From Henriciella aquimarina (lineage in GTDB: Bacteria > Pseudomonadota > Alphaproteobacteria > Caulobacterales > Hyphomonadaceae), in contig NZ_NCST01000018.1 in the NCBI RefSeq assembly GCF_002088975.1, positions 1-43,752 of the forward strand: a stretch of DNA of 43,752 nucleotides, written 5' to 3'. The number at the start of each line of letters is the position of its first letter. The stretch's first letter is position 1. The notes beneath the pieces are model-generated. The model was not told where the DNA came from. It searched no databases and was given only the letters and a program-made list of their open reading frames with translations. A program made the translations under genes and the position numbers. Shown here in pieces: positions 28,995 to 43,752 of the stretch.

Positions 28995-29219
28995 GGTCCC
29001 GCCCAGATCATCGTTTTGTACGTCTCGATGGCTGAGTATTGGCCGGGGAAACTCGATATTTGGTTAACGCGACTGCCCTGTTAGCGTGCTGTGACGGGGC
29101 TTTCCGGCGCTTGCGCAGATGCGGTGCGGCTGGCCCTGTGACCAATACTGCAGCGCAGCGCGACGGAATCGATATCGCAGGTCGTTTCAGTTTTTGTGAA
29201 AAGATCTGGCAGACCGCAT
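28995..29219. promoter_or_regulatory. Divergent spacer between diguanylate cyclase and macA-type gene
   Basis: The 225 bases hold a GTTAAC palindrome near 29061 and a generally less GC-rich start. It must promote the cyclase leftward and the export operon rightward. No recognisable riboswitch or operator was found. A 200-codon open frame across it on the plus strand is judged spurious. Confidence 0.35.
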
Positions 29220-30536
29220 ATGAAAAAGCCCTTTCTCCTGAAAACCCGGACCCTGCTCGTCGGGAGTCTGGTCGCTGCTGCAGCGATTGCAGCCTTTGTC
29301 TATGGCCGGTCGGTCTTCACGGAGCAGGCGCCCGCCTATCAGACCGCCCAGGTCACGCGCGGCGATATCGAGGTGACGATTTCCTCGGCGGGCAAGATCA
29401 CGCCGAAGGAATCCGTCGATGTCGGCGCGCAGGTCTCCGGCCAGCTGCAGGAGCTGTTTGTCGATATTGGCGACCGGGTGGAGAAGGGCGACCTGCTCGC
29501 CCAGATCGACCCGACCATCGCCCAGACCAGCGTCGAGGCGAACCGCGCCCAGTTGAACGAGCTGAAAGCCAGCCGCAAGCAGCAACAGGCCACGCTCGAG
29601 CTTTCCAGGGCCGATGCCGAGCGCGCCCAGATGCTCTATGACGCCGATGCGATTGCCCGCGCCGACTATGAAACCGCCCAGGCCAATCTCGCCATCGCGC
29701 AAGGCCGGCTGGAAGCCATCGACGCGCAGATCCAGCGCCAGACCTCCTCGCTGCAATCGGAACTCGCCAATCTCGAATTCACCAAGATCTACGCGCCGAT
29801 CGCCGGGACGGTGGTTTCGCTCGCCGCCGTCGAGGGCCAGACGCTCAACGCCAACCAGACCGCGCCGATCATCCTGACGATCGCCGATCTCGGCGTGATG
29901 ACGGTCGAGACCGATGTCTCCGAAGCCGACGTCCTGCGCATCGAGGAAGGCCAGGCGGCCTATTTCACGACGCTGGGGGAGTCCGCCCGGCGCTGGGAGA
30001 CTAGCGTGCGCCAGGTCCTGCCGACGCCGGAAGTCCTCAATGACGTGGTCCTCTACAAGGCGTTGCTCGATGTCGACAATCCGCAGGGCAGGCTGAAGCC
30101 ACAAATGACCGCGCAGGTTTTCTTCATCACCGGGTCCGCCAGGGATGCCGTGCTTGTGCCCGTTACCGCGCTTCAGCCCGCCCCGCGAAGGGCAGGCGCT
30201 GGCGAGCAGGCTGTGGCCGGCAATGGCGACCGGTCTGCTCGCGGCGGCTTCATGCAGGCCGAGGCGTCCGAACCGGCGGCCGGCCCGGGCAATGACCGGC
30301 GCGCAGCGTTCCAGGCCGCCCGCGAGGCGCATCCGGACGCCGAAGCCGCCACCGTGCTGGTGATGAATGCCGCCGGTGAACCGGAGCCGCATCCTGTCCT
30401 GATCGGCCTGAAGACCCGCACCATGGCGGAAGTCCTTTATGGCCTCGAACCCGGCCAGACGGTCGTCACAGGCGATGTCGCGATCCCGCGTCCCAATGGC
30501 GATACGCGCGGCGGCGCGCGCTTCATGCGCCGCTAG
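29220..30536 (+). CDS. macA: MacA-like periplasmic adaptor (membrane fusion protein)
   Basis: The adaptor joins a MacB-type ABC transporter to an outer membrane channel. The 438-residue product has one N-terminal membrane helix (about 11-28), a barrel/lipoyl half with VTISSAGKITPKESVDVGAQVSGQLQELFVDIGDRVEKGDLLAQID, a coiled-coil hairpin (about 100-185), the second lipoyl half IYAPIAGTVVSLAAVEGQTLNANQ and a beta-barrel with RLKPQMTAQVFF. A low-complexity insertion of about 55 residues (321-376), rich in Ala, Gly, Arg and Glu, interrupts the membrane-proximal domain and explains the extra length against about 370 residues in E. coli. ATG 29220 is preferred; an in-frame GTG at 29196 would add a charged start. 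Confidence 0.9.
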   Translation: MKKPFLLKTRTLLVGSLVAAAAIAAFVYGRSVFTEQAPAYQTAQVTRGDIEVTISSAGKITPKESVDVGAQVSGQLQELFVDIGDRVEKGDLLAQIDPTIAQTSVEANRAQLNELKASRKQQQATLELSRADAERAQMLYDADAIARADYETAQANLAIAQGRLEAIDAQIQRQTSSLQSELANLEFTKIYAPIAGTVVSLAAVEGQTLNANQTAPIILTIADLGVMTVETDVSEADVLRIEEGQAAYFTTLGESARRWETSVRQVLPTPEVLNDVVLYKALLDVDNPQGRLKPQMTAQVFFITGSARDAVLVPVTALQPAPRRAGAGEQAVAGNGDRSARGGFMQAEASEPAAGPGNDRRAAFQAAREAHPDAEAATVLVMNAAGEPEPHPVLIGLKTRTMAEVLYGLEPGQTVVTGDVAIPRPNGDTRGGARFMRR

Positions 30537-30549
30537 GGAGGGACGCCAG

Positions 30550-32487
30550 ATGACCGCTCCCCTTATCGAGCTCGACCATGTCGACCGCTTTTACGGTGCT
30601 GGCGACACCGAAGTGCGGGCGCTGGATGGCGCCTCCCTGACCATCCACTCGGGCGAGTTCGTCGCCATTGTCGGGCAGTCGGGCTCGGGCAAGTCGACGC
30701 TGATGAACATTATCGGCTGTCTCGACCGGCCGACGGGCGGGCATTACCGCGTGCGCGGCCAGGACGTGGCCGACCTCGACACCAATGCGCTCGCCGCCCT
30801 GCGCCGGGAGACGTTCGGCTTCATCTTCCAGCGCTACAATTTGCTCGCCAATGTTTCGGCCTCAGAGAATGTCGAGCTGCCGGCGGTTTATGCGGGCTTG
30901 AGCCATGAAGAGCGCCGCGAAAAGGCGAGCGATCTGCTCAGCCGGCTGGGCCTCGGTGATCGCACCGGCAACAAGCCCGGCCAGCTCTCGGGCGGCCAGC
31001 AGCAGCGCGTCGCCGTCGCCCGGGCCCTCGTCAACGATGCCGAGGTGATCCTGGCCGACGAACCGACCGGCGCGCTCGATTCCGGCTCGAGTGAGGAACT
31101 GCTCAACCTGCTCGAGGCCCTGCATGCCGAAGGCCGCACCATCATCCTCATCACCCACGACCAGAAAGTGGCCGAGCGTGCCAAACGCATGATCGAGATC
31201 CGCGACGGCCAGATTGTCTCCGATACCGGTGAGGACGAGGCCCGGCCGGAAGAGGCCGAAGGCTACCGCTACAGCCGCAAGGGCCCCTCGCCGGTCGGCC
31301 AGGTGTTCGAGGCGGTGAAGATGGCCTTCCGGTCGCTGAGGGCGAACCTGTTTCGCACCGCACTGACCCTGCTCGGCGTCGTCATCGGCGTGTCGGCGGT
31401 GGTGGCCATGCTCGCCATCGGGCAGGGCAGCCAGCAGGAAGTGATGGCCCGCTTTGAATCGCTTGGGCCCAATTTGCTTTTCGTGCGCCCCGGCGCGCCC
31501 GGCACCCGCATGCGCGGGGATGCCATCGCGACGCTGACGCTGGAGGATGCCGAGGCGCTCGGCGCGCTCGACAATATCCTCGCCGCCGTGCCGTCGCGCT
31601 CGACGGGGGCGACCTTCCGGGTCGGCAGCAAGGATTATAGCAGCCAGGTCGAGGGCGTCTCCGAAGACTGGCCGCTCGCCCAGAACCGCGGTCTCAAATA
31701 CGGCACCTTCTTCACCGAGGACGACATGGACCGTCGCATCGGCGTCGTCGTGCTCGGCACCACGACCGCCGGCAACCTCTTCGACGATGTCGAGGGCGCG
31801 GTCGGCCAGTATGTCTTTCTCGGGGGCGCGCCCTTCGAGGTGGCCGGCATTCTTGAGGAGAAGGGCGCGACTGGCTGGGGCCAGGACCAGGACGATGTCG
31901 CGCTGGTGCCGATCACGACCGGCATGATGCGCCTGTTCGGGCAGAACTATCTCTCCTCCATCACGCTCGCCGTCGATGATACCGACCGGGTGGCCGAGAC
32001 CGAGGAGGCGGCGAAAAACCTGCTTCTGGCGCGTCACGGCACGGAAGACTTCCAGATCCGCAACACCGCCTCCTTCCTGGAGTCGATGCAGGAAGCGCAA
32101 AACTCCTTCTCCATCCTGCTGGGCTCGGTCGCCTCGATTTCCCTGCTTGTGGGCGGGATCGGGGTGATGAACATCATGCTGGTCAGCGTTTCGGAGCGTA
32201 CCCGTGAGATCGGTGTGCGCATGGCCACCGGGGCGCGGCGTTCCGACATCATGACCCAGTTCGTGGTCGAGGCGCTCGTCGTCGGCGGGCTCGGCGGGAT
32301 TGCCGGTGTGCTGATCGGCCTCGGCGTCTGTTTCATCCTGTCGGAAAGCGGCATGACCGTCGCCGTGACCGCGCTGCCGGCCATGCTCGCCTTTACCTCC
32401 GCGCTCGCGACCGGGCTTGTCTTCGGGCTTCTGCCCGCGCGCAAGGCCTCGCGTCTCGACCCGGTCGCCGCTCTGGCTTCGGAGTAG
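30550..32487 (+). CDS. macB: MacB-like ABC transporter (ATPase plus permease)
   Basis: MacB-type proteins are mechanotransmission ABC transporters that export macrolides, peptides or lipopeptides via MacA and an outer membrane channel. The 645-residue product matches MacB's size and order. The ATPase domain has Walker A GQSGSGKST (42-50), signature LSGGQQQR (147-154), and Walker B VILADEPTGALD (166-177). Then come one membrane helix (about 270-295), a large periplasmic domain, and three further helices at the end with the FtsX-like VGGIGVMNIMLVSVSERTREIGVRMATGAR. ATG 30550 has an AGGGAGGGA ribosome binding site. The substrate cannot be told from sequence. Confidence 0.93.
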   Translation: MTAPLIELDHVDRFYGAGDTEVRALDGASLTIHSGEFVAIVGQSGSGKSTLMNIIGCLDRPTGGHYRVRGQDVADLDTNALAALRRETFGFIFQRYNLLANVSASENVELPAVYAGLSHEERREKASDLLSRLGLGDRTGNKPGQLSGGQQQRVAVARALVNDAEVILADEPTGALDSGSSEELLNLLEALHAEGRTIILITHDQKVAERAKRMIEIRDGQIVSDTGEDEARPEEAEGYRYSRKGPSPVGQVFEAVKMAFRSLRANLFRTALTLLGVVIGVSAVVAMLAIGQGSQQEVMARFESLGPNLLFVRPGAPGTRMRGDAIATLTLEDAEALGALDNILAAVPSRSTGATFRVGSKDYSSQVEGVSEDWPLAQNRGLKYGTFFTEDDMDRRIGVVVLGTTTAGNLFDDVEGAVGQYVFLGGAPFEVAGILEEKGATGWGQDQDDVALVPITTGMMRLFGQNYLSSITLAVDDTDRVAETEEAAKNLLLARHGTEDFQIRNTASFLESMQEAQNSFSILLGSVASISLLVGGIGVMNIMLVSVSERTREIGVRMATGARRSDIMTQFVVEALVVGGLGGIAGVLIGLGVCFILSESGMTVAVTALPAMLAFTSALATGLVFGLLPARKASRLDPVAALASE

Positions 32488-32491
32488 ACTT

Positions 32492-33853
32492 ATGCTCAGA
32501 CCGATTATCCTGTCTTCCTCGCTGCTCGTTCTCACCGCCTGCGCCTCGCTTGCGCCGGAGACGCCTGAGAGCGCGCATGCCATCGCGATGCCGGCCGCCT
32601 ATGACTATGCCGGCGAGGTCGAGGCGCTGGCCGCGCCGGAGCGCGAATGGTGGGACGGGTTCGAGACCGCCTCGCTCGACCAGCTGGTCAGCGAGGCGCT
32701 GGCCGCCAACCAGACGCTCGCGCAGGGCGTGGCCAATGTCGAAGCCGCCCGCGCCGCGCTGAAGGTCGCCAATGCCGCCTTCCTGCCGCAAGCGAGCGGC
32801 AGCCTGTCGGCCTCCAGCAACACCGAAGGCGACGGCCTCGACGATGTCGATGCCAGTGGGCGGCTCTCGGCCTCCTACCAGCTCGACCTGTTCGGTGCGA
32901 ATGCCGCAAGCCGCGAGGCCGCGCAGGCGAGCCTCGAAGCGACGATCTTCAGCCAGCGCGCGCTGGAACTGACCGTACAGTCGGACGTGGCGACGAACTA
33001 TTTTGCCCTGCTGGCCGCGCGTGAGCAGTTGGAGGTCGCCCGGCGCAACCTCGAAATCTCCGAGCGCATCTATGACATCGTCCAGGTGCGCTATGAGGCC
33101 GGTGCCATCTCTGGCTATGACGTCTCCGCGCAGGAAGCCCAGCTTGCCAATGCGCGCGCCCGCATCCCGCAGATCGAGGCGCAGATCACCGGCTTCGAGA
33201 CCGCGCTCGCCATCCTGACGGGCCGCGCCCCGCAGGGCTATGACGCACCGGAGGAGAACATCCTGTCGATCAGCCTGCCAGAGACCGACCCCGGCCTGCC
33301 CTCCGACCTGCTCCTGCGCCGGCCGGACCTGATGCAGGCCGAAGCGAGCCTTCGCGGCGCCAATGCCAATATCAAGGCGGCGCGGGCGGCCTACTTTCCG
33401 AGCATCGATCTGGGCGCCGGGGTCTCCAGCCTGCTGACGGGCGGGGGGGATCTTACCGGTTCGCTGTCGGCCTCGCTGGCGCAGACCATCTTTTCCGGCG
33501 GGCGGCTCGAAGGCCAGGTCGAAAGCGCCGAAGCGCGCCGGGATGCCCAGCTCGCAGGCTACCGCCAGGCCATTCTGGGGGCGCTGCGCGATGTCGATGT
33601 CAGCCTCAAATCGGTGGAGTCGAATGCCGTGCGGGAAGACCAGCTGCTGATCGCACGCGAGGCGGCCGGCGAGGCGCTGGAAGCTGTCGAACTGCGCTAC
33701 CGGGCCGGCACCGACGACCTGACAAGCTTGCTCACCGCCCAGCAGACCTATTTCGACGCCTCGAACACCTATGTTCAGGGCCGCCTCGACCGGCTGACCG
33801 CGGCGATCAATCTCTATGTCGCGCTTGGCGGCGGCTATGGACAGACGCCCTGA
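32492..33853 (+). CDS. Outer membrane factor lipoprotein (NodT/OprM type)
   Basis: This 453-residue protein is the outer-membrane channel for the preceding MacA-MacB pair, from which it is only 4 bases away. It has a lipoprotein signal peptide with lipobox LTA-C (Cys 17), then WWDGFETASLDQLVSEALAANQTLAQGVANVEAARAALKVANA and the two structural repeats of the OEP family. DLLLRRPDLMQAEASLRGANANIKAARAAYFPSIDLGA and the terminal QAILGALRDVDVSLKSVESN plus LRYRAGTDDLTSLLTAQQTYFDASN are classic NodT/OprM blocks. The set completes a tripartite exporter. Confidence 0.93.
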   Translation: MLRPIILSSSLLVLTACASLAPETPESAHAIAMPAAYDYAGEVEALAAPEREWWDGFETASLDQLVSEALAANQTLAQGVANVEAARAALKVANAAFLPQASGSLSASSNTEGDGLDDVDASGRLSASYQLDLFGANAASREAAQASLEATIFSQRALELTVQSDVATNYFALLAAREQLEVARRNLEISERIYDIVQVRYEAGAISGYDVSAQEAQLANARARIPQIEAQITGFETALAILTGRAPQGYDAPEENILSISLPETDPGLPSDLLLRRPDLMQAEASLRGANANIKAARAAYFPSIDLGAGVSSLLTGGGDLTGSLSASLAQTIFSGGRLEGQVESAEARRDAQLAGYRQAILGALRDVDVSLKSVESNAVREDQLLIAREAAGEALEAVELRYRAGTDDLTSLLTAQQTYFDASNTYVQGRLDRLTAAINLYVALGGGYGQTP

Positions 33854-33871: not shown

Positions 33872-34381
33872 CTAATTCGCGAAGCCGTCCCCGACCCCGA
33901 AGTCGCGCCGCGCCGAGACGATGCTGACGATCACGCCGACCAGGACGTCCATGAGCGACATCATCGTCAGCAGGAAGAAGGTCGAGGTCGCGAAATTGCC
34001 GATGGTCAGGAACATCACCAGGCAGAAGAGCAACACGCCCATCGACATGGCATGATTGACCATGGCGCTTGAGCGCGAGCTTGTCGCCTTCACGATCTCG
34101 AAGGAGAGCAGGACCAGCGAGACGAAGAGGATGAGGTCGCCGAGGCTGAGCGTCCAGCGCACCCCGGAAATCATCGGCATGCCGAAGATGATGCCGCGAA
34201 GCGCCGGTTCGATGGCCGGGCCGGTTTCTGTGTGCTGGCCACCGGCGAACCAGGTCATCAGGACATAGAAGCCCACCGGAAAGGCGAGCAGCGGTGTCAT
34301 CGTCTGCACCTTGCTGACAATTCCCATGCGGGATGCGGCGGATCTGCGGCCGGCCTGGGCGGACGGGCTTGGTATGGGCAT
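33872..34381 (-). CDS. Four-TM membrane protein, family not recognised
   Basis: The 169-residue product has about four membrane segments: LLAFPVGFYVLMTWF, LGDLILFVSLVLLSFEIV, MGVLLFCLVMFLTIGN and FFLLTMMSLMDVLVGVIVSI. The N terminus is cytoplasmic-like, with Ser/Pro/Arg. I could not place it in a named family. ATG 34381 is chosen because GGAGGAGG precedes it and it starts just 1 base past the stop of the upstream peptidase; a longer start at 34402 would overlap that gene. It is the last gene of the seven-gene operon and could be a membrane partner of the peptidases or a transport component, but this is a guess. Confidence 0.75.
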   Translation of the reverse strand: MPIPSPSAQAGRRSAASRMGIVSKVQTMTPLLAFPVGFYVLMTWFAGGQHTETGPAIEPALRGIIFGMPMISGVRWTLSLGDLILFVSLVLLSFEIVKATSSRSSAMVNHAMSMGVLLFCLVMFLTIGNFATSTFFLLTMMSLMDVLVGVIVSIVSARRDFGVGDGFAN

Positions 34382-34382
34382 G

Positions 34383-35363
34383 TCAGTATCCTCCTCCGGC
34401 ACCCGGACCGCGCAAGCGGTCGCGGATGGACTGTTTGGCCTTGCTGAGATGGTCTTCTAGGGCCGACGCGGCCGATTGGCGGGCCGTCTGAAGCTCGGCC
34501 TGCAGCGCGGGCGCGACGGTCTGCGCGGCGGCCTGCAGGAACTGGTCGGCCGAGGGGCCGCTGACCTGATAGGCGCGGTGCTCGGCAGTATTGCCGACGG
34601 CGAAGGGCTTCGGCGCGTTGGGGTAGACCGGCGCGCGCGTATAGTGATCGAGCACGGCGTAATCGATCCAGACATGGCCTTCGAGGCCCCAGTCGGCGCC
34701 CCAGGAATTGCGCACCAGGAAGGCGTTCTCGCGGTCGTCATAGCCGACGAGCAGCATGGCATGGCCGCTGTTCGCGCCTTCCCACTGGCCGTTCGCGGGC
34801 GGTTTCATCTGGCCGCTATGGCGCGCGTCGATGGCCATCATGCGCTTCGGCGTCGCCATGCCGAAGACGACCGGCAGGCCGCTGGCGAGCGCGTCCTTCA
34901 CCGGGTCGCCATGTTCGAGTTCGGCGAACTCGACGGCGCGGAAATTCTCGGCGGCCTTGTAGCAGTCACGGCCCGGTTCTTCCTCGACGAGGGCTTCCTG
35001 ATAGGGCCACATGGCTTCCGGGCAAACGCCCCAGCCGAGTACGGAGGCGAGCGCGATGCGGCGCGAGCAGCCCGGCTCGCCCAGCCGTCCGGCGAGCTTG
35101 CGGGCATTGTAATAGACGAACAGCCGCGACAGGTCGCGCAGCTCGCGGCCGGCGCGGATCTGGTGGTATTCGAGCGCGCCGACCACGGCATTCGCCACGC
35201 AGGAGCCGATCTTTTGCTGGTTCTCGACCGGCGAGCACTGGGCCCGCAGGTCCACGCTCGGGGGGCGGGTAATCTCGCCCACCTTGCTCAGCACGGGGAA
35301 GCTTGTGCCCGGTTCGTCGGGCAGGCAGCCGCCAATGGGGTAGCCTTCGAAAATCTCAAGCAT
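34383..35363 (-). CDS. Papain-like (C1) cysteine peptidase A, with GPGAGGGY tail
   Basis: This cysteine peptidase should cut peptide bonds using a Cys-His-Asn triad. The 326-residue product shows Gln49 (oxyanion hole) and Cys55 in QKIGSCVANA, His201 in SGHAMLLVGYDD, and Asn219 in VRNSWGADWG. No signal peptide, propeptide or membrane segment is evident. After the catalytic domain (about 35-245) come a helical, Ala/Gln-rich region and a final GPGAGGGY preceded by RDRLR. Peptidase B upstream is a clear paralogue, sharing long blocks such as LEYHQI, DLSRLF-YYNARKL and WPY. Substrate and cellular site are unknown; acting on a protein inside the same complex is possible. Confidence 0.88.
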   Translation of the reverse strand: MLEIFEGYPIGGCLPDEPGTSFPVLSKVGEITRPPSVDLRAQCSPVENQQKIGSCVANAVVGALEYHQIRAGRELRDLSRLFVYYNARKLAGRLGEPGCSRRIALASVLGWGVCPEAMWPYQEALVEEEPGRDCYKAAENFRAVEFAELEHGDPVKDALASGLPVVFGMATPKRMMAIDARHSGQMKPPANGQWEGANSGHAMLLVGYDDRENAFLVRNSWGADWGLEGHVWIDYAVLDHYTRAPVYPNAPKPFAVGNTAEHRAYQVSGPSADQFLQAAAQTVAPALQAELQTARQSAASALEDHLSKAKQSIRDRLRGPGAGGGY

Positions 35364-35461
35364 GCTGGCCCTCCCGCGGGATGCCGGGACAGGAAGCCGC
35401 CCTCAGGGTGGCCGCTCCCTGTCCACCGGCCCGCGAGCGTCCCCTCTCTCGCGATCTCGTC

Positions 35462-36544
35462 TCACTCGTCATAGCCGCCTCCCGCCCCCGGGCCGCGATG
35501 ATAGCCACCGCCAGCGCCCGGTCCCTGGTCGTATCCGCCGCCGGCGCCGGGTCCGCGATTGTAGCCGCCGCCCGCACCGGGACCCCGGTTATAGCCGCCA
35601 CCGGCGCCCGGACCGCGCAGGCGGTCGCGCAGGCTTTCTCGCGTGGCTTCGATATTGGCTTCGAGCTCGCCGCGGATATGCGCCTTCAGGGCATGGATCT
35701 GGTCCTGCACGGTGGGCGGCGCCTGCTCGACGGTGGCCTGAACGGCTTCCTCGGTCGAGGCGCCGGCCAGCTTGAAATATTGCGAGCGGTCGAGCGCGCC
35801 GATGGTCCAGAAGCCGAGCGGCTGCTTGTAATGGTCCATGACGCGGTAATCGATCCAGACATAGCCATTGAGCCCCCAGCCCGGCCCCCAGGAGTTGCGC
35901 ACCAGCCAGGCATTCTTGCGGTCGTCATAGCCGACGATCAGCATGGCATGGCCGCTACGGGCCGGTTCCCAGTTGCCGTCTTCCGGCGGCTTTACATGGC
36001 CGGTCTTGCGGGCGATGACCTGCAGGGCATGCGAGGGCACACCCATGCCGAAAATGATCGGCAGGCCGGAATAGAGCGCGATCTTGAGATCGAGGCCGTG
36101 CTGGACGCTGGCATATTGCAGCGCGGAGAAATGGCCCGCGCTCTGATAGGCTTCCTGAGAGGGCTCCTTGTCCCAGAGGAGCGGGTTGTAGGGCCAGACC
36201 GGTTCCGGGCAGGCGCCGAAGGCAAGATAGGACGCGACCGCCTGCGCCATGGAGCAGCCGGTGTCCTCATCGATCGAGCCCTTCAGCTTGCGGGCATTGT
36301 AATACATGAAGAGCCGCGACAGGTCCGTCATCGGCTGGCGGTGCAGGATCTGGTGGTATTCGAGCGCCCCGGCGACCGAGTTCGCCGTGCAGGAGCCGAT
36401 ATGGCCCTGGTCCTCGACCGGCGAGCACATGGGCGAGAGATCCACCGCGGGCGGCAGCTCGGGATGGGCAGACGCCGTCAGCGCCGGGGCCGGCTGGGTC
36501 GGGTCGGCCGGGATATAACCGCCAAGCTTGTATTTCTGACTCAT
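35462..36544 (-). CDS. Papain-like (C1) cysteine peptidase B, with five-copy GPGAGGGY tail
   Basis: This paralogue of peptidase A has the same triad: Gln46, Cys52 in GHIGSCTANS, His199 in SGHAMLIVGYDD, Asn217 in VRNSWGPGWG. The catalytic domain covers about residues 30-245 of 360. A helical linker with ELEANIEATRESLRDRLR then leads into five tandem decapeptides of the form GPGAGGGY plus two varying residues (311-360). There is no signal peptide or propeptide. It starts with MSQKYKLGGYIPADP. It lies 98 bases upstream of peptidase A and 40 bases after the kinase gene. Gly/Pro-rich tails like this could act as flexible tethers or assembly signals; no known sorting signal matches. Confidence 0.9.
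   Translation of the reverse strand: MSQKYKLGGYIPADPTQPAPALTASAHPELPPAVDLSPMCSPVEDQGHIGSCTANSVAGALEYHQILHRQPMTDLSRLFMYYNARKLKGSIDEDTGCSMAQAVASYLAFGACPEPVWPYNPLLWDKEPSQEAYQSAGHFSALQYASVQHGLDLKIALYSGLPIIFGMGVPSHALQVIARKTGHVKPPEDGNWEPARSGHAMLIVGYDDRKNAWLVRNSWGPGWGLNGYVWIDYRVMDHYKQPLGFWTIGALDRSQYFKLAGASTEEAVQATVEQAPPTVQDQIHALKAHIRGELEANIEATRESLRDRLRGPGAGGGYNRGPGAGGGYNRGPGAGGGYDQGPGAGGGYHRGPGAGGGYDE
35465..35614 (-). repeat. Five tandem 30-base repeats encoding GPGAGGGY decapeptides
   Basis: The last 50 codons of peptidase B are five 30-base units. The protein units are nearly identical (only residues 9 and 10 vary among N/D/H and R/Q/E), while the DNA units differ at many third-codon bases. That pattern suggests the peptide is being kept by selection rather than that the array is a fresh DNA duplication. 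Peptidase A ends in a single copy. Confidence 0.93.
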
Positions 36545-36584
36545 GCTGGCCTCCTCGGGCGCGATGGGAAGGGGGTGGGCCGCG

Positions 36585-37808
36585 CTACTGGCATATGACG
36601 TTCCCGTAGGCGTCGTAGTAGCAATTGCCGCTGCCGGTCTCTTCGGCCAGCCCGCCGAAAACCGCGATCAGGACGACGATGGCGATCACCGCCCAGCCCC
36701 ATTTCGGAATGGTGCGGAAGACGCGGCCATAGGCGTTCTTCAGGTCCTGCTGGGCTTCCCTGTATTCGCGCTTGCGCTCGTCGGGGCCGGCATTCCGGCG
36801 CAGGCTGGTGTTGAAGCCCTCGATCATCGCCTCGCGATAGTCGGCGGCTGTTTGGGGGCGCAGGTTCCGATTGGTCGACAGCCCCCGCTCGATCAGCTTG
36901 TCGATGGCGGGCGGCACGTCGGAGCGTCCGTCGGAGGGCGGCGACCAGTGACCGGTCGGCAGCACGCCGACGATCAGCTCGTAGAAGATCTTCGAGACCG
37001 AATAGAGGTCGGCGGCGGCATTCGCGGCGTTTGCATTGCGGATCTGCTCGGGCGCCATGTACAGCTGCGTGCCGAGCCCGGTGCCCGTGCCATCGTCTGA
37101 TTTCTGCGTGGTGGCGAGCGCGATGCCGAAATCGACGATCTTGACCTGGGCGTCCTGTGCCGTGGGCTCGCCCAGCAGCATGATGTTCTCGGGCTTGAGG
37201 TCGCGGTGGATCACGCCAGCAGCATGGGCGGCTTCGAGCCCGTTCAGCACTTCCTTGACGATCTGGCCGGCGATCCGGGCGGGCACCTCCTCATTGCGCG
37301 ACATCTTCTCGGTGCGCCAGATGTGGAGCGGCTTGCCCTCGATATATTCCATGGCGATGTAGGGCGCGCCCTGCCAGACGCCGATATCATAGGTCTTCAC
37401 CACGTTCGGGTGAGAGATGGTCCGCGTCGTCTTGCCTTCCTCGATGAGGCGCTGGACGGCCCTTTCGCTGGAGACCTGGCCGGAGGGGATCACCTTCAGC
37501 GCCACCGGGGTATCGGTGACCGTCTCGATGGCCTTGTAGACCATGCCCATGCCGCCGGCGCCGATCATGCGCTCGATGCGGTACTTGCCGGCGACCATGG
37601 TGCCGGGCGCCATACCGGTCGGGGCGGGAGCGTAATCGCCGCCGGTCATGTCATCCCTGCCAGGCGCGACGGTCTCCAGGCCGGAGACGGTCCGCAGGGC
37701 GGCGACGGTTTCGACTTCGGTCTCGATGTCTTCCACGGCTGTGCCGCAGGCCGCACAGAAGCGGGCATTGTCGGGCAGTTCGGTCTGGCAGGCAGAGCAT
37801 CTCAGCAT
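36585..37808 (-). CDS. Membrane Ser/Thr protein kinase with N-terminal zinc ribbon
   Basis: This Hanks-type kinase phosphorylates Ser/Thr on target proteins. The 407-residue product has a zinc ribbon at the start (C4, C7, C18, C21), then a kinase domain about 75-335 with glycine loop GAGGMGMV, VALK (Lys 105), HRDLKPEN (201-208), DFG (227-229) and APEQ (252-255). All key catalytic residues are present. After a charged helical region (about 335-368) comes one membrane helix (about 371-387) and a short tail with two cysteines (NCYYDAYGNVICQ). The FHA gene is 11 bases upstream, and FHA domains bind phospho-Thr, so the pair probably works together. Confidence 0.95.
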   Translation of the reverse strand: MLRCSACQTELPDNARFCAACGTAVEDIETEVETVAALRTVSGLETVAPGRDDMTGGDYAPAPTGMAPGTMVAGKYRIERMIGAGGMGMVYKAIETVTDTPVALKVIPSGQVSSERAVQRLIEEGKTTRTISHPNVVKTYDIGVWQGAPYIAMEYIEGKPLHIWRTEKMSRNEEVPARIAGQIVKEVLNGLEAAHAAGVIHRDLKPENIMLLGEPTAQDAQVKIVDFGIALATTQKSDDGTGTGLGTQLYMAPEQIRNANAANAAADLYSVSKIFYELIVGVLPTGHWSPPSDGRSDVPPAIDKLIERGLSTNRNLRPQTAADYREAMIEGFNTSLRRNAGPDERKREYREAQQDLKNAYGRVFRTIPKWGWAVIAIVVLIAVFGGLAEETGSGNCYYDAYGNVICQ

Positions 37809-37819
37809 GATCTCGCTCC

Positions 37820-38962
37820 TCAGGCGCGGCAGGTCCGGGTCAGAAGGATGCGCGTCACATCCTCCCGCTCGGCTTCGAAATTGACGGTGACGGTCAGCGC
37901 GTCCGGGCTCTTGCGCAGCGGCGAGATCACCGCCCCGTCCTCGAGCAGGACGCTCTTGGTGCGGCCATAGGCATCGCCATTGACCCTCAGCCCGAACTGG
38001 CTCTCCACGCGCAGCATCAGGCGCCCGGATTCGGGATAGATGGAGAAGTGCTGGCGCGAGATGGAGCCGGTCAGCGGCGACAGGGCGCCGTCTGCCTGGC
38101 TGACCAGAAGCCGGGCATCATTGCCCTCCTGGTCATGGCCGACCGCATTGCGCCCGAAATAGAGGATGCCGGAGGGATCGAGGATCGGCCCGTCGGCCGG
38201 GCAGTCGCCCTCGGCAAAGCCGCGCCAGGCGAAGCTGACGGCGCGCGGCACCCGCAGCCCGTTGTCATAGCCGCGCCGGCCGAGCCGGGTTTCGTCCTGG
38301 TCGGCGCGGTTGAGCTTCAGCGGGATGGGCCGGGCATGGGTGTCCTGACCGGCGGCGCGCTCCTGTTCGATACGTGTCGGATTGTAGACGGTGAGGCCGG
38401 CGCCGATCTGGTCGGCGGTGACATTGATGTTGGTGACGGGGCCGTTCGGGTCCTTGCTCTCGACCGGGAAGATGATCGAGCTGGTCAGGACGAAGGCTTC
38501 TTCGCGCCAGTGATAGCGGGACGCGATGGCAAGCCGCAGGTCGACCTGGTGAACCCCGGCATGGTCGAGCACCTCGGTGCGCACCGCGACATTGGCCGAG
38601 CGCCCGGAATCGAGCCGCTCGAACGACAGCGGCAGCTCGCGCCAGCCGGCATCGTCCTCTTTTACCCAGAGGCCCGTCACGAAAAGCGGGCGGCCGATCC
38701 CGGCGGCATTGCGGATGACGAGCGGCAGGGCAAGCTTGCCGCCTTCGCGCACCGTGCTCGCTGCGCCCGCATCGAGATAAAGTTCCGGCTGGATGCAGAC
38801 CGGGCACATGCCCGACCGGTCGATCACCGAGTGGCATTCCTGCGCGGCCATGCACCAGATCAGCGGCTTGCCGCAATCGCCGCAGAACCCGGCTTCGGGT
38901 GTCTGGGCCGAGCGGGCGCAGCAATCCTGCGGGCGGGCGAGGGAAGGGGCCTGAAGGCTCAT
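37820..38962 (-). CDS. FHA-domain protein with Cys-rich N terminus
   Basis: The C-terminal part (about 267-360 of 380) fits a forkhead-associated, phospho-threonine-binding domain: FGR at 269-271, S-ISRQH at 300-305 and GLRVNG at 324-329, the residues that normally contact phosphate and peptide. The N-terminal 60 residues hold eight cysteines in CxxC-type spacings (C27, C30, C53 and C56 among them), consistent with a zinc ribbon. The middle is beta-rich (residues about 75-165) and unassigned. It has no signal peptide or TM segment. It lies 4 bases after the SPFH gene and before the kinase gene. Role inferred: phospho-dependent adaptor for the kinase. Confidence 0.8.
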   Translation of the reverse strand: MSLQAPSLARPQDCCARSAQTPEAGFCGDCGKPLIWCMAAQECHSVIDRSGMCPVCIQPELYLDAGAASTVREGGKLALPLVIRNAAGIGRPLFVTGLWVKEDDAGWRELPLSFERLDSGRSANVAVRTEVLDHAGVHQVDLRLAIASRYHWREEAFVLTSSIIFPVESKDPNGPVTNINVTADQIGAGLTVYNPTRIEQERAAGQDTHARPIPLKLNRADQDETRLGRRGYDNGLRVPRAVSFAWRGFAEGDCPADGPILDPSGILYFGRNAVGHDQEGNDARLLVSQADGALSPLTGSISRQHFSIYPESGRLMLRVESQFGLRVNGDAYGRTKSVLLEDGAVISPLRKSPDALTVTVNFEAEREDVTRILLTRTCRA

Positions 38963-38966
38963 CGTG

Positions 38967-40559
38967 TCAGGTCCTGAGCTTGTGCCCGCATTTCATGCAG
39001 AACTTGGAGGTGGCCGGCGCCGCCGTGCTGCACTTCGGGCAGTCGATGGTCTGGATTTCGGCCTGTGGCTGGCCGGTGGCGGCCGCCTCGGGGAGAGGTT
39101 TGCCGCCCGCCCCGGCGGCCACGCCGACCGCGCCGCGCATGGCGATGTCGGACATGGTGCGGGCCTGGTCCTCGGTGCGGATCTCGCGCGCCTGCGCGGC
39201 CTCGACCATTTCGCGCATGAGGGCCATGCTCTGCTCATTGGAAGAGGCTTCGGCGCGGGCGCGTTCGGCCAGCACCATCGCGACATCCGGCGACAGCCCG
39301 GCATCGAGCGCCAGGATCTGCTCGGCGCTCATGCCCTTCTTGTGGATCAGGATTTCCTTTTGGCCGTCCAGCTCCTGCTGGCGGTCGAGGCGCTTGATCT
39401 CGGCACGGACGCGCTCACCGCGCAGCTCGATCTCCTGCAGTTCGGAGATGTGTTCGCGCTGCTGCTTCTGGGCGAGGGCGGAGACTTCCAGCTCGCTGAA
39501 TGCGCCGGACTTCTTCATCTCCTGCATGTGGGTTTCGCGCAGGGCCGACATGTCGGTGTCGATCTTCAGCTGCTCCTGCTGGATGCGCATCAGCTCGGTC
39601 TCGTTGCGCGCGGTCGCCAGCTGGTTCTCGAAGGTCGCCTTGCGCTCCTTTTCGAGGAAGGCGACCTGGTGGTCGAGCTCTTCCAGCTCCTGGCGGCGCT
39701 TGGCGTTCTCGCGCGCATCGATGAACTCGATCTCGCTGTTGAGCGCCATGTGCTTGAGCTCGTCCTCACTGGCATTCTGCAGCTTGGCGAGTTCGGTCCT
39801 GGAGCGGATCTCGAATTCCGTCGCATCGTTGATGAGTTCGGCCTGGCGCTTGGCCATCTCGATCTGGAACTCGACTTCCTTCTGCCTGCGTTCGGCGTCG
39901 GCGCGAGCCTGTTCGGCGGCTTCCTCGGCATTCTGCGCCCACTCGATGGAGGTCGAGCGGATGATCAGGCCGAGGTCGCCGACGACGCGTTCGACCTCTT
40001 TCATCATGTCGGCCTGGAGCTTGTCCTGCAGGCCGGTATCGCCACGGATGTCGGCGGCATCGACGCGCCCGATGGCAGCCTCGAAGACGCGGTCGGAGAA
40101 GTGCGGGCGGATCCGGTCCAGCACATCGGCCTTGGCGAGTGCCTTGCGGCCGAGATCGTTGGCGTCGCCCGGCGCGCGGTCGACGCCGTGCATCATGCCG
40201 AGAATGTTGGACGGCTTGTCGGTATTGACCTGCACTTCCAGCGTCACCACTCCGGTCACCTCGACCTTGTCGCGGCTGGTCGCCCGCAGCACCGTTTGCA
40301 GCTGGAAGGGCTTCAGGTCGGCAATCATCATCGAGATGTGGGTGGAGCCGCCAATCAGGCTCTTCATCCGGTCGACCAGTCCGCCGACGGAGAAGTGGCC
40401 GCCCTTGAAGGCATCGACCAGTTCGCCGTTCTTGAACAGCAGCGCGGCATAGTCGGGCGGCACGGCGAAGCGCTTCTCGAAGAAGGCCTTGAATTCGCTC
40501 TGGCGCATGAATTCGGCGAGCATGCGCGGATCGCTGAGAACAATCGGTTCGGAAGCCAT
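38967..40559 (-). CDS. SPFH/band 7-like protein with long coiled coil and C-terminal zinc ribbon
   Basis: The 530-residue protein looks like an SPFH-type scaffold. Residues about 35-205 form a beta/alpha domain (DYAALLFKNGELVDAF, FQLQTVLRATSRDKVEVTGVVTLEVQVN, then VGDLGLIIRSTSIEW). Residues about 208-430 are a very charged coiled coil rich in Glu, Arg and Gln. The end has a zinc ribbon (C507, C510, C521, C524). No membrane segment is visible, so it would lean on a membrane protein; the three-TM protein is encoded 2 bases upstream. SPFH proteins with zinc ribbons occur in bacteria such as Bacillus YdjI-type proteins. ATG 40559 has GGGAG in front and is preferred over 40574, which would overlap the upstream stop. 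Confidence 0.78.
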   Translation of the reverse strand: MASEPIVLSDPRMLAEFMRQSEFKAFFEKRFAVPPDYAALLFKNGELVDAFKGGHFSVGGLVDRMKSLIGGSTHISMMIADLKPFQLQTVLRATSRDKVEVTGVVTLEVQVNTDKPSNILGMMHGVDRAPGDANDLGRKALAKADVLDRIRPHFSDRVFEAAIGRVDAADIRGDTGLQDKLQADMMKEVERVVGDLGLIIRSTSIEWAQNAEEAAEQARADAERRQKEVEFQIEMAKRQAELINDATEFEIRSRTELAKLQNASEDELKHMALNSEIEFIDARENAKRRQELEELDHQVAFLEKERKATFENQLATARNETELMRIQQEQLKIDTDMSALRETHMQEMKKSGAFSELEVSALAQKQQREHISELQEIELRGERVRAEIKRLDRQQELDGQKEILIHKKGMSAEQILALDAGLSPDVAMVLAERARAEASSNEQSMALMREMVEAAQAREIRTEDQARTMSDIAMRGAVGVAAGAGGKPLPEAAATGQPQAEIQTIDCPKCSTAAPATSKFCMKCGHKLRT

Positions 40560-40561
40560 GA

Positions 40562-41110
40562 TCAGCTCTCCCACTTCCGGTTGGAGACAAAGGTGATGAT
40601 GTTGAAGAGGATGACGGCGACGGTGACCGTGACGCCGACCGGGTGTTCCTGGACCACGCGGGTCAGGCGCTCGCCGGCCGAATACTGCTCCCAGTAGCGT
40701 CCCATGATGGAGACCTGGAACATCGTTCCGGAGATCATGGTCGCCAGCGAGAACAGCGCCATGCCGAAGGAGATGAGCCGCCCGAAGCGCGAGATCATCG
40801 TCTCCTTGCGGCGGCGCTCGCGTTCGGCGGCGCGGGCCTCGTCGCGGTCGCGCTTGTCGAGATAGGTCTCATAGGCCTCACCGCGTTTCAGCGCCTCCTC
40901 GCGGGCCTTCTCGTCGATGGAGAGGAAGTCGGGCGTAGCCTTCCGGTTCGGGCTCGCCCCGCTGGCGGTGGTCAGGTTGGAGGCCCGGCGGCGCCACAGG
41001 ACGAAGACGGTCCAGACCAGCCACAGCGCGGTCACCGCACAGGTGACGTTGAACAGGATGGTGATGACCGGCCAGGCATCCGGCGGGATCGAGTTGATGG
41101 CGTCTTCCAT
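40562..41110 (-). CDS. Three-TM membrane protein, family not recognised
   Basis: The 182-residue product has a membrane helix near the start (PVITILFNVTCAVTALWLVW), a charged cytoplasmic region (about 55-110) rich in Arg, Glu, Lys, then two more helices (FGMALFSLATMISGTMF and VGVTVTVAVILFNIITFV). I do not recognise the family. It is the first gene of the operon, so it probably supplies the membrane anchor for the SPFH, FHA and kinase proteins encoded after it. ATG 41110 has a GAGGT ribosome binding site; an in-frame GTG at 41122 is less likely. Confidence 0.78.
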   Translation of the reverse strand: MEDAINSIPPDAWPVITILFNVTCAVTALWLVWTVFVLWRRRASNLTTASGASPNRKATPDFLSIDEKAREEALKRGEAYETYLDKRDRDEARAAERERRRKETMISRFGRLISFGMALFSLATMISGTMFQVSIMGRYWEQYSAGERLTRVVQEHPVGVTVTVAVILFNIITFVSNRKWES

Positions 41111-41253
41111 TTCTGACCTCACAAGGGTGGTTCAGAAGAGAAGGCGCACCGGCTTCCTGAATCGGGTCAGGCAGAATTTAAAAAATATGATCTGTCGTGA
41201 TTCTTGCACTTCCGGAGATTTTGCGAATACAGTCCCGGAAGGGGACAACGTGG
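41111..41253. promoter_or_regulatory. Divergent promoter region between the kinase/protease operon and the ECF sigma gene
   Basis: The 143-base spacer contains an A/T-rich tract near 41176-41190 and should carry promoters for both sides. Its shared use makes it the best place to look for a -35/-10 pair of the ECF factor, but I cannot identify one by eye. Confidence 0.4.
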
Positions 41254-41814
41254 ATGAATACTGCCGATACTGACTGCAAGGCCTTGCTGAAGCGCTGGCG
41301 TGAGGGGGATCTCGGGGCCCGGGATGCCCTGTTCGCGTGTCTCTATACCGAATTGTGCCAGGTTTCGGCGGCCATGCTGCGCGCGGAACGCAACAGCTCG
41401 CTTTCGACCGGCGACCTCGTCAATGAGGCCGCCATCCGCCTCATCCAGCTCGACCAGATCGACTGGGCCGACAAGAGCCATTTCCTGGCGCTGTCGGCGC
41501 GGGCCATGCGCCGCATCCTGATCGACCATGCGCGGCGCAAGAATTCAGACAAGCGCAAGCACCAGAAAGTCACCCTCGTCACGCGCATCGAGGGCCATCC
41601 CGGCCGGCTCGACTTCGATGTGCTTGAAAAGTCGCTGATCCGTCTCAACGCCATCGACAGCGAGAAGGCCGACATTGTCGAGCTGCGCTATTTCGGCGGG
41701 CTCAGCCTGCCGGAGATCGCGGAGGTGACGGGCACCTCGGAGTCTACCGTCAAGCGCCAGTGGCGGGTCGCCCGCGCCTGGCTGGTCGATGCCATGGCGG
41801 CGGATGTGCGATGA
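41254..41814 (+). CDS. ECF-type sigma factor (TIGR02999/PF07638 type)
   Basis: The 186-residue product directs RNA polymerase to specific promoters. A region 2 is seen with LSTGDLVNEAAIRLIQLDQIDWADKSHFLALSARAMRRILIDHARRK, a characteristic block of the TIGR02999 sigma family, and a region 4 helix-turn-helix with ELRYFGGLSLPEIAEVTGTSESTVKRQW. There is no signal-sensing extension. ATG 41254 is supported by GGAAGGGG upstream; a longer in-frame start at 41197 lacks support. Its stop overlaps the kinase ATG (ATGA). This family (often called ECF43) is known to be paired with Ser/Thr kinases that control it. Confidence 0.93.
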   Translation: MNTADTDCKALLKRWREGDLGARDALFACLYTELCQVSAAMLRAERNSSLSTGDLVNEAAIRLIQLDQIDWADKSHFLALSARAMRRILIDHARRKNSDKRKHQKVTLVTRIEGHPGRLDFDVLEKSLIRLNAIDSEKADIVELRYFGGLSLPEIAEVTGTSESTVKRQWRVARAWLVDAMAADVR

Positions 41815-43752
41815 GCGCGCCGGACACCTTCGAACGCGAGGCGCTCGCCATTTTCGACGAGGCGCTCGATGTTCCCGAAGCCCGGCTGGCGGAATGGCTC
41901 GAGGCCCGCTGTGAGGGCAATGCAGCGCTGAAGGCGCGCGTCCTGCAATTGCTGGAGGCCGACAGCGGCAAGACCGACGTGCTGCGCACCGGCGGGGCCG
42001 GCCAGGACGGCCGGGAGGAGCCGGCGCCGGAGCGGGCCGGGGCCTATCGCATCACCGGCCTGATCGGGCAGGGCGGCATGGGCGCGGTCTATCTCGGCGA
42101 GCGCGACAGCGGCGACTTCGACCACCGCGTTGCCATCAAGGTCATCCGGCCGGGCGCGCTCAGGGCCTCGCTGATCGAGCGCTTCACCCATGAGCGCCAG
42201 ATCCTGGCCAGCCTCAACCACCCCAATATCGCGCGGCTTTTCGATGGGGGCTATCTCGATGACGGCTCGCCCTACATCGTCATGGAGTATGTCGACGGCG
42301 AACCGCTGCTCGACTGGGCGCGGGCCAACCATCTCGGGCAGGCCGCCCGGCTGGGCCTCTTCCGCGAGATCTGCGCGGCCATCAGCCATGCCCACCAGAA
42401 CCTCATCGTCCACCGCGACATCACCCCGTCCAATGTGCTGGTGACCCGCGATGGCCAGGTGAAGGTGATCGATTTCGGCATTGCCAAGCCGCACGACATT
42501 TCCGCGCCGGCCGAGACCGGTGGCAGCGGCAGTGCGACGCTCGCCTCGTTGAGCTTCACCCCCGGCTATGCCGCCCCCGAGCGGGCCAAGGGCGCCCCGG
42601 CCAATACGCTGTCGGACATCTATTCGCTCGGCAAGCTGCTGGCGGAGCTGGTGCCCGCCCATGAGAGCGACCGCGACCTCGCCGCCATCGTGGCAAAGGC
42701 CACCGCGCCCGCCCCGGCAAGGCGCTATCCGAGCGTCGATGCGCTGGCCGATGATCTCGCCAATTACCGGAGCGACCGGCCCGTTGAGGCACGCGGCGGC
42801 GGACGGGGCTACCGGTTCGCGAAATATCTCAAGCGCCAGCGTGTGGCCGTCACCATCGGGTCGCTCGCCGTGCTGGGCCTCATGGGCGCGCTGATCGTCA
42901 CCCTTGTTCAGTACAACCGCGCGGAAACGGCGCTGGCGAGTGCCAATGCCCGGTTCGACGAGGCGCGCCAGCTCAGCCGCTCGCTTATCTTCGATGTCTA
43001 CGATTCCTTCGAGGAGGTGGCCGGCACGCTGGAGCCGCGCCGGGCCCTTGCCGGCCTGGTGCGCGACTATATCGACGATCTCGCCCTGGATGAGACCGCG
43101 CCCGAAGATGTGCTGTTCGAGGTCGGCACCATGCAGCTGCGCCTCTCCAATCTTTATGGCGGGGTGGGCATTGCCAATTTCGGCGAGACCGACACCTCAA
43201 TGGAGCTGCTGGACGAGGCGGAGAGCTCGCTGCGCCTGGCGCTCGACAAGGCGCCCGGCAATAGCGCGGCGCTGGCCGAACTCATCATGGTCAAGCGCAT
43301 GCAGACCATGGAGGCCCTGAACTATACCTCCGATCCCGACACCGCGCTCAAACACAATGGCGAGGCCATGGCGCTGGCCGAGCAGGGGCTCGCCATGCCG
43401 GGCGTCGAGGAACGCCCCTTCCTGCGCCATCTCTGGAGCGTGCGCACCGACCTGATGCAGATCCTGTTTGCCCAGGACAGATACGAAGAGGCCAATCAGC
43501 GCCTGGCCGACTGGCGCGCGGCGCTGACGCCGCAAATGTATGAGCGCCTTGGCGGGGGTGAGGAGATGGGGGCCTATATGGCGTCCCAGCAGGCGGAAGT
43601 GCTGAACGAACTTGAGCGCTGGCCGGCAGCGGCCGAGGCGGCCGAAGATGCGATCGCCTATCGCGAGGCGCAGCTGGAAACCACGCCGGACAATTACTAC
43701 CAGCTGACCCAGCTCATGGTGGCGCTGGGCGAGCAATCCATGGCCTTGCGGA
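41811..43752 (+). CDS. Ser/Thr protein kinase with TM segment and helical repeat region (3' end cut by window)
   Basis: The open frame runs from ATG 41811, coupled to the sigma gene, to the window edge (647 codons visible). After a helical N terminus (about 1-70) comes a kinase domain about 78-325 with GQGGMGAVY, AIK (Lys 110), DFG (221-223) and APE (255-257). The catalytic loop reads HRDITPSN (201-208): the usual Lys after HRDL/I is Thr205, while the Asp and Asn are kept. A membrane helix lies at about 347-366, and the rest is helical and probably TPR-like with periplasmic location. It likely senses a signal and acts on the coupled sigma factor; the end of the gene is not in the window. Confidence 0.92.
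   Translation, partial: MSAPDTFEREALAIFDEALDVPEARLAEWLEARCEGNAALKARVLQLLEADSGKTDVLRTGGAGQDGREEPAPERAGAYRITGLIGQGGMGAVYLGERDSGDFDHRVAIKVIRPGALRASLIERFTHERQILASLNHPNIARLFDGGYLDDGSPYIVMEYVDGEPLLDWARANHLGQAARLGLFREICAAISHAHQNLIVHRDITPSNVLVTRDGQVKVIDFGIAKPHDISAPAETGGSGSATLASLSFTPGYAAPERAKGAPANTLSDIYSLGKLLAELVPAHESDRDLAAIVAKATAPAPARRYPSVDALADDLANYRSDRPVEARGGGRGYRFAKYLKRQRVAVTIGSLAVLGLMGALIVTLVQYNRAETALASANARFDEARQLSRSLIFDVYDSFEEVAGTLEPRRALAGLVRDYIDDLALDETAPEDVLFEVGTMQLRLSNLYGGVGIANFGETDTSMELLDEAESSLRLALDKAPGNSAALAELIMVKRMQTMEALNYTSDPDTALKHNGEAMALAEQGLAMPGVEERPFLRHLWSVRTDLMQILFAQDRYEEANQRLADWRAALTPQMYERLGGGEEMGAYMASQQAEVLNELERWPAAAEAAEDAIAYREAQLETTPDNYYQLTQLMVALGEQSMALR

Follow-up and report, generated by a model that had tools for sequence, protein, structure and literature searches.

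A conserved gene set combining an SPFH protein, an FHA protein, a Hanks-type kinase and papain-like peptidases in Henriciella aquimarina and its relatives

Seven closely spaced genes on the minus strand of a 43,752 nt stretch of Henriciella aquimarina DNA (contig NZ_NCST01000018.1, analysed whole and referred to here as the window) encode two membrane proteins, an SPFH protein, an FHA protein, a membrane Ser/Thr kinase and two papain-like peptidases, raising the question of whether such a set belongs together and, if so, what it might do. The genes span positions 33872–41110 and are transcribed in the order g7, g6, g5, g4, g3, g2, g1, and when each frame is started at ATG the gaps are 2, 4, 11, 40, 98 and 1 bases; these coordinates and spacings were recomputed and are identical to those of the original prediction for this DNA. 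The gene set forms a conserved, co-inherited unit, far beyond chance, and the seven genes almost certainly constitute one co-regulated unit.

Among 105 genomes of the family, a match to the SPFH profile was obtained at E ≤ 0.001 in 36 and at E ≤ 1e-100, near full length, in 34. The two left out were G003, which matched at E 7.3e-4, and G104, where E 5.4e-24 was reached over a piece of 73 residues, and the stretch around the SPFH gene was fetched for each of the 34 genomes kept, which are the stretches covered by the locus counts below (L labels denote fetched loci, G labels genomes). The FHA gene is present in all 34 loci, g7 and the kinase in 33 each, a C1 (papain-like) peptidase in 30, an extracytoplasmic function (ECF) sigma factor and its neighbouring upstream kinase in 23 each, g1 in 18 and a metallophosphatase in seven. 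The order three-transmembrane (TM) protein, SPFH, FHA, kinase (g7-g6-g5-g4) is kept in 30 of the 34; the exceptions are L076 without g7 and L081 without g4, both at contig ends, and L078 and L079, in which the FHA gene stands with g1 in a second unit. Of the 15 loci obtained by scanning species genomes, 13 show this order: twelve (L002–L013) come from records titled Hyphomonas, Henriciella, Hyphomonadaceae, Alphaproteobacteria or, in one case, Acidobacteria, and the last (L014) from one titled Pirellulaceae. The flanking genes vary among groups of loci, as judged by eye. The g6 protein shares 82% identity with an SPFH protein from a Henriciella, and in Hyphomonas neptunium ATCC 15444 the FHA gene is HNE_1635.

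At the level of whole genomes, an operon-type peptidase (E ≤ 1e-50) is present in 31 of the 34 SPFH-positive genomes versus none of the 71 SPFH-negative ones, where the best match reached 1.4e-28. The three positives lacking it are G091 and G094, with two kinases at the locus, and G098, where the operon meets a contig end. The sigma factor (E ≤ 1e-90) occurs in 27 of the 34 versus one of the 71 (G040). Fisher tests gave 1.5e-23 for the peptidase and 1.6e-17 for the sigma factor, uncorrected for genome relatedness and with cut-offs (1e-50 and 1e-90) that were picked after gaps in the lists had been seen. Because the sigma factor sits on a different contig from the operon in three genomes (G027, G087, G089), its co-occurrence with the operon is more than adjacency. 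Weaker sigma relatives (E about 1e-61 to 1e-69) were found in six further SPFH-positive genomes and also in two genomes lacking the operon, G082 and G084; the close sigma factor of G040 (E 9.6e-96) lies at C2:266684-267262 in a genome without an SPFH gene. Homologues of the set are therefore found mostly together and not, as could have spoken against the original prediction, mostly apart.

The upstream regions of g7 contain a recurrent two-part element. The pattern TGA[AC]C-N18-CGC[CT]T was matched 57 times across the 34 loci (579,187 bases), versus six matches for a reversed control, and 45 of the 57 stand before g7, g1, g5 or the phosphatase gene. With the variant TGA[ACG]C, the element is found ahead of 26 of 33 g7 genes, against an expectation of 0.06 with shuffled sequence, and 24 of these 26 sites are 31–37 nt before the start. 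In L082, L084, L086 and L087 it lies 279–299 nt ahead of the g7 frame, and L080, L081 and L083 have no element before g7. Positions left free by the pattern are also conserved, whereas median identity over the 90 nt preceding the site is only 0.30, with 21 clusters for 26 sequences. An element lies within 200 nt upstream of g1 in 13 of 18 cases; among the other five, g1 ends the operon in L088, L063 and L065, and follows a g5 that has the site in L078 and L079. Where g1 or g5 is separate, the element stands before it, and the phosphatase gene can likewise be its own unit. Before other genes the element is rare or absent (g6 1/33, g4 0/38, g3 1/33, g2 0/3, sigma factor 0/23, its kinase 0/23), and the three loci whose sigma factor is unlinked (L061, L063, L066) retain it. 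The adjacent ECF sigma factor probably reads this element, and sigma factor, second kinase and promoter together point to an induced response. Four matches to the pattern, in L055, L057, L059 and L060, lie between the peptidase gene and a downstream kinase on the strand opposite the operon. A wider regulon in the window genome was considered and rejected, as a stricter pattern gave 13 matches versus five in the control and, judged by eye, only the window site kept the longer consensus.

Table 1. Positions and predicted features of the operon and its divergent regulatory genes in the window.
Feature	Position	Strand	Prediction	Basis
g7	40562..41110	-	Three-TM protein, probable membrane anchor	3 TM by hydropathy; conserved beside g6
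RRRASNLT in g7	40970..40993	-	Candidate phosphosite directly after TM1	Conserved motif; phosphorylation inferred
g6	38967..40559	-	SPFH protein, coiled coil, C-terminal zinc ribbon	Fold matches; PF13240 E 2.6e-5
g5	37820..38962	-	FHA protein; N-terminal Cys-rich (zinc-ribbon-like) part, middle beta domain	PF00498 E 6.8e-5; invariant residues; model
g4	36585..37808	-	Zinc ribbon, Hanks Ser/Thr kinase, one TM	PF00069 E 9e-45; PF13240 E 8.6e-7
g3	35462..36544	-	C1 papain-like peptidase, five terminal GPGAGGGY copies	PF00112 E 5.6e-16
g2	34383..35363	-	Second C1 papain-like peptidase, one terminal GPGAGGGY	PF00112 E 7.8e-15
g1	33872..34381	-	Small multi-TM protein; elsewhere own unit with same promoter	
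TGACCCG-N16-GCGCCT	41142..41169	-	Predicted ECF-type promoter	31 nt before g7 ATG
Sigma factor	41254..41814	+	ECF sigma factor	TIGR02999 / PF07638; co-occurrence with operon
Second kinase	41811..43752	+	Hanks-type kinase; overlaps sigma-factor stop, runs off window	PF00069 E 1.2e-36

The protein types originally assigned to these genes largely hold, with the FHA protein, the Hanks kinase and the two C1 peptidases recovered by Pfam, the SPFH protein by its model and homologues, and g7 as a three-TM protein. For g1, said to have four TM segments, the hydropathy scan yields three, a fourth and weaker one being visible by eye only; the same scan gives three segments in g7, one in g4 and none in g6, g5, g3 or g2. 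The zinc ribbons of kinase, FHA and SPFH proteins, the GPGAGGGY tails, the divergent sigma/kinase pair and the promoter had been overlooked.

The predicted structure of g6 (AlphaFold) matches SPFH structures best, with HflK/C and FtsH-HflKC entries among the matches, and on this model g6 has the fold of the SPFH superfamily. No SPFH/band 7 match to the window g6 was found by Pfam at E ≤ 0.01; PF01145 is present on four of 120 g6 homologues among the matches listed, and a profile search of the PDB with the SPFH alignment returned zinc-ribbon proteins as its best matches, at E 0.01 or worse. The window kinase retains HRDLKPEN, DFG and GxGxxGxV, and among 39 homologues of g4 both HRDxKxxN and DFG are kept in 38. 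Two g4-type kinases stand in tandem in L082, L083, L084, L086 and L087, with one copy lacking HRD (L083) and one lacking DFG (L082). The conserved Gly-Arg, Ser and His are taken as the signature of FHA domains, and in the g5 family G270, R271, S302, R303 and H305 are invariant in 11 of 11 sequences, with N328 nearly so; the g5 model (predicted local distance difference test, pLDDT, 75.1) has FHA structures as its best structural matches. A CxxC-CxxC pattern recurs in the SPFH (35/35), FHA (35/35) and kinase (38/39) proteins, in 6/33 g3-type peptidases and in 0/3 g2-type ones, and may be a shared module that aids assembly. In all 34 g7 homologues compared, that of the planctomycete included, RRxx[ST][NG][LV]T stands shortly after TM1 and is followed by PDF[LM]xxD; this basic site with its invariant Thr, on the presumed cytoplasmic side, appears to be the best candidate for a phosphorylation target.

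Both g2 and g3 carry the C1 active site (Q46, C52, H199, N217), which is invariant in 12 of 12 sequences. Among solved structures g3 is best matched by 3ois (E 9.4e-38), a Xylella protein that bears the title Cysteine protease. No signal peptide was seen by eye in either protein. The whole genome holds six exact copies of GPGAGGGY, five ending g3 and one ending g2, with none in the control; their confinement to the two peptidases rules against a genome-wide tag, and since the copies use differing synonymous codons, conservation acts on the peptide itself. Of the 30 loci with a peptidase, 11 have such tails, one more (L066) is cut by a contig end and the others end otherwise, for example in LRGK or LRD; the string was not found in the open-access papers searched. 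Some Hyphomonadaceae peptidases bear an N-terminal zinc-ribbon-like extension (L069:13307-14383, L071:9808-10908, L072:4775-5866, L079:11921-12997).

The sigma factor is encoded beside its Hanks kinase, both lying inside the fetched locus in 23 of 34 cases. In ECF43 factors this part of the protein, region 2.2, lacks the acidic DAED motif and carries a conserved phospho-Thr. Here region 2.2, aligned by eye in 23 sequences, reads [SA][TS][GS]D, with two acidic residues lost and the last Asp kept, and the Thr/Ser lies one position earlier than in EcfP. The homologue of the upstream kinase in L010 is full length (790 aa) and has a weak TPR match. Convergent to the downstream TPR-type kinase, seven of 34 loci (e.g., L003:18409-19125) encode a conserved protein, some 238 residues long, to which Pfam has no match. 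The accessible part of PMC8999054 reports kinase activation of one ECF43 factor in Hyphomonas neptunium, which may or may not be the operon-linked one.

These features can be arranged into an inducible inner-membrane response module, a chain that as a whole we hold tentatively, at somewhat short of even likelihood. An envelope trigger would act on the upstream kinase (41811 on), which would switch on the adjacent ECF sigma factor, presumably by phosphorylation as in its ECF43 relatives, and the sigma factor would then transcribe the operon from TGACCCG-N16-GCGCCT. Because g6 has an SPFH fold and no membrane segment, g7 may serve as its anchor, holding an SPFH oligomer on the cytoplasmic face of the inner membrane, much as YdjI of Bacillus subtilis needs YdjG and YdjH. 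The membrane kinase g4 would phosphorylate a partner, for which the invariant Thr of RRxx[ST]NLT in g7 is the best candidate, and the FHA protein g5 could bind the phospho-mark and join the parts. The chances that the SPFH oligomer is anchored and assembled with kinase and FHA protein in this way seem evenly balanced. The peptidases might then be recruited to the platform or held in check on it, perhaps via their tails, and cut membrane-associated substrates, a step that we consider rather less probable. More doubtful still, a kinase-assembled SPFH compartment might enclose or license the peptidases, with phosphorylation of g7 recruiting the FHA adaptor and opening the platform, and the GPGAGGGY tails acting as a docking or self-inhibition tag; if true, SPFH-protease assemblies such as HflKC-FtsH would have here a counterpart that is switched by phosphorylation and works with soluble cysteine proteases.

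Co-inheritance and the shared promoter are observed, and assembly, gating, cleavage and trigger are what we infer. Several observations weigh against this chain. The g6 model is of middling confidence (predicted template modelling score, pTM, 0.29), 12 of the 57 promoter matches lie elsewhere than before the genes named above, and the sigma factor, aligned by eye, has no Thr at the position phosphorylated in EcfP/EcfK. A close sigma factor is missing from seven of the 34 SPFH-positive genomes, and G040, G082 and G084 have the factor or a weaker relative without the operon. Longer g4 kinases possess an extra C-terminal domain past the TM segment, which the window kinase (407 aa) and two relatives (419 and 423 aa) do not have.

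The alternative that survives best, though we think it rather unlikely, is that the genes share a regulator and form no complex, the peptidases serving a separate purpose such as protein turnover and the SPFH, FHA and kinase proteins acting as an independent membrane-stress sensor. The ability of g1, g5 and the phosphatase gene to form their own units under the same promoter is consistent with this, as is the fact that L014, from the planctomycete, and the family loci L086 and L087 have the four-gene core but no peptidase. The lack of any strong peptidase match in the 71 genomes without SPFH protein argues instead for dependence. 

For the response-module reading, since the core occurs without a peptidase in these three loci, the peptidases look like the output of the platform and not its core. 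The originally proposed membrane-scaffolded, phosphorylation-gated proteolytic system thus fits the co-inheritance and the conserved signature residues of peptidases, FHA protein and kinase, and is altered in the place that it gives to proteolysis.

Defence against phages, predators or competitors, in which the kinases would sense attack, the peptidases kill or disarm, and the SPFH scaffold act as membrane sensor, is unlikely. The patchy presence (34/105 family genomes) would suit it, as would the best PADLOC match, of the kinase to PD-T4-6 (E 1.4e-66), and the accessible part of one report has the ECF43 pair EcfK/PknS controlling a type VI secretion system (T6SS) used against amoebae (PMC13147305). 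The kinase match is generic, however, because 36 PADLOC families match this protein, and no family is matched by the remaining six proteins of the operon. A plasmid search matched no copy of the operon proteins, and 26 pattern matches in viral contigs included no confirmed relative, for which reasons a mobile origin was also rejected. Of five operon proteins searched against PHROGs, four had no match and g2 matched one peptidase family.

A lineage-specific surface or developmental system (stalk, bud, attachment) is improbable: occurrence is mostly in Hyphomonadaceae, and 22 of 36 longer kinases share their C-terminal domain (E ≤ 1e-3, best 3.2e-12) with a lipoprotein whose gene some loci have between those of kinase and peptidase, but a near-full-length SPFH protein is absent from 71 of the 105 family genomes, the planctomycete has the core, and the peptidases lack TM segments and, by eye, signal peptides. 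Examples of the lipoprotein gene are L003:14306-14803 and L006:14328-14807. Beyond the family, the searches for the SPFH protein scored only the best few candidates per genome. On this basis, the class (289 genomes) gave three matches at E ≤ 0.001, only the window's own being full length; the phylum (398 genomes) gave E ≤ 1e-10 only in G000 and G074, both inside the family; and the phylum of the planctomycete (343 genomes) gave 36 matches at E ≤ 0.001, with only G392, G517 and G649 aligning over the SPFH part. Divergent partial sets were also seen in the planctomycete search (L112:2710-7257, g7-SPFH-kinase; L113:1369-3922, SPFH-FHA).

Elsewhere in the window, an efflux cluster (HlyD, MacB and the outer-membrane efflux protein OEP, 29196-33853) is convergent to the operon, and flagellar genes lie farther off (FHIPEP 23649-25727, FliK 15368-16885). 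The fold downstream of g1 is unremarkable as a terminator (z -1.28).

No description of this gene set was found in the open-access papers searched, in agreement with the original prediction, which knew of no described system with the exact set; PMC7159879 and PMC10936438 name some of the same domains, and their accessible parts do not describe the set. In bacteria, SPFH proteins, Hanks kinases and papain-like peptidases are familiar one by one, but much less so in combination. Here they occur in one small, conserved group of genes that brings a predicted sigma factor, promoter and phosphosite of its own and is present in a named strain (FHA gene HNE_1635), so that the link between phosphorylation, SPFH scaffolds and local proteolysis could be tested directly.

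As far as the accessible parts of the sources go, the nearest known design is the B. subtilis operon pspA-ydjGHI of the sigma-W regulon, and the regulatory half resembles the ECF43 sigma/kinase pairs. Like the present set, pspA-ydjGHI is an ECF-controlled operon with an SPFH protein; YdjI, which is probably soluble, needs the membrane proteins YdjG and YdjH of its own operon for recruitment, according to the text available from PMC8581546, and a zinc ribbon occurs there too, placed on YdjG in the available portion of PMC9239133. In contrast, the operon here has no PspA (PF04012 is matched just once in the genome, on contig C29, and the operon is on C11) and adds a Hanks kinase, an FHA protein and C1 peptidases. 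In ECF43 pairs such as EcfP/PknT and EcfK/PknS the sigma factor gene likewise adjoins the kinase gene, whereas region 2.2 here is [SA][TS][GS]D and not STTA or QTTA, and the output is the operon. The T6SS threonine phosphorylation pathway PpkA-Fha-PppA is a known system that similarly joins a membrane kinase, an FHA protein and a phosphatase, here a metallophosphatase in 7/34 loci, as one switch; the phosphatase here differs in being PF00149. HflKC controls FtsH, and HflK/HflC-FtsH resembles the present set in bringing an SPFH assembly together with a protease, while the present proteases are papain-like, lack TM segments and come with an additional kinase and FHA protein. What is new relative to all of these is an ECF/kinase-associated SPFH membrane module combined with an FHA adaptor and papain-like peptidases.

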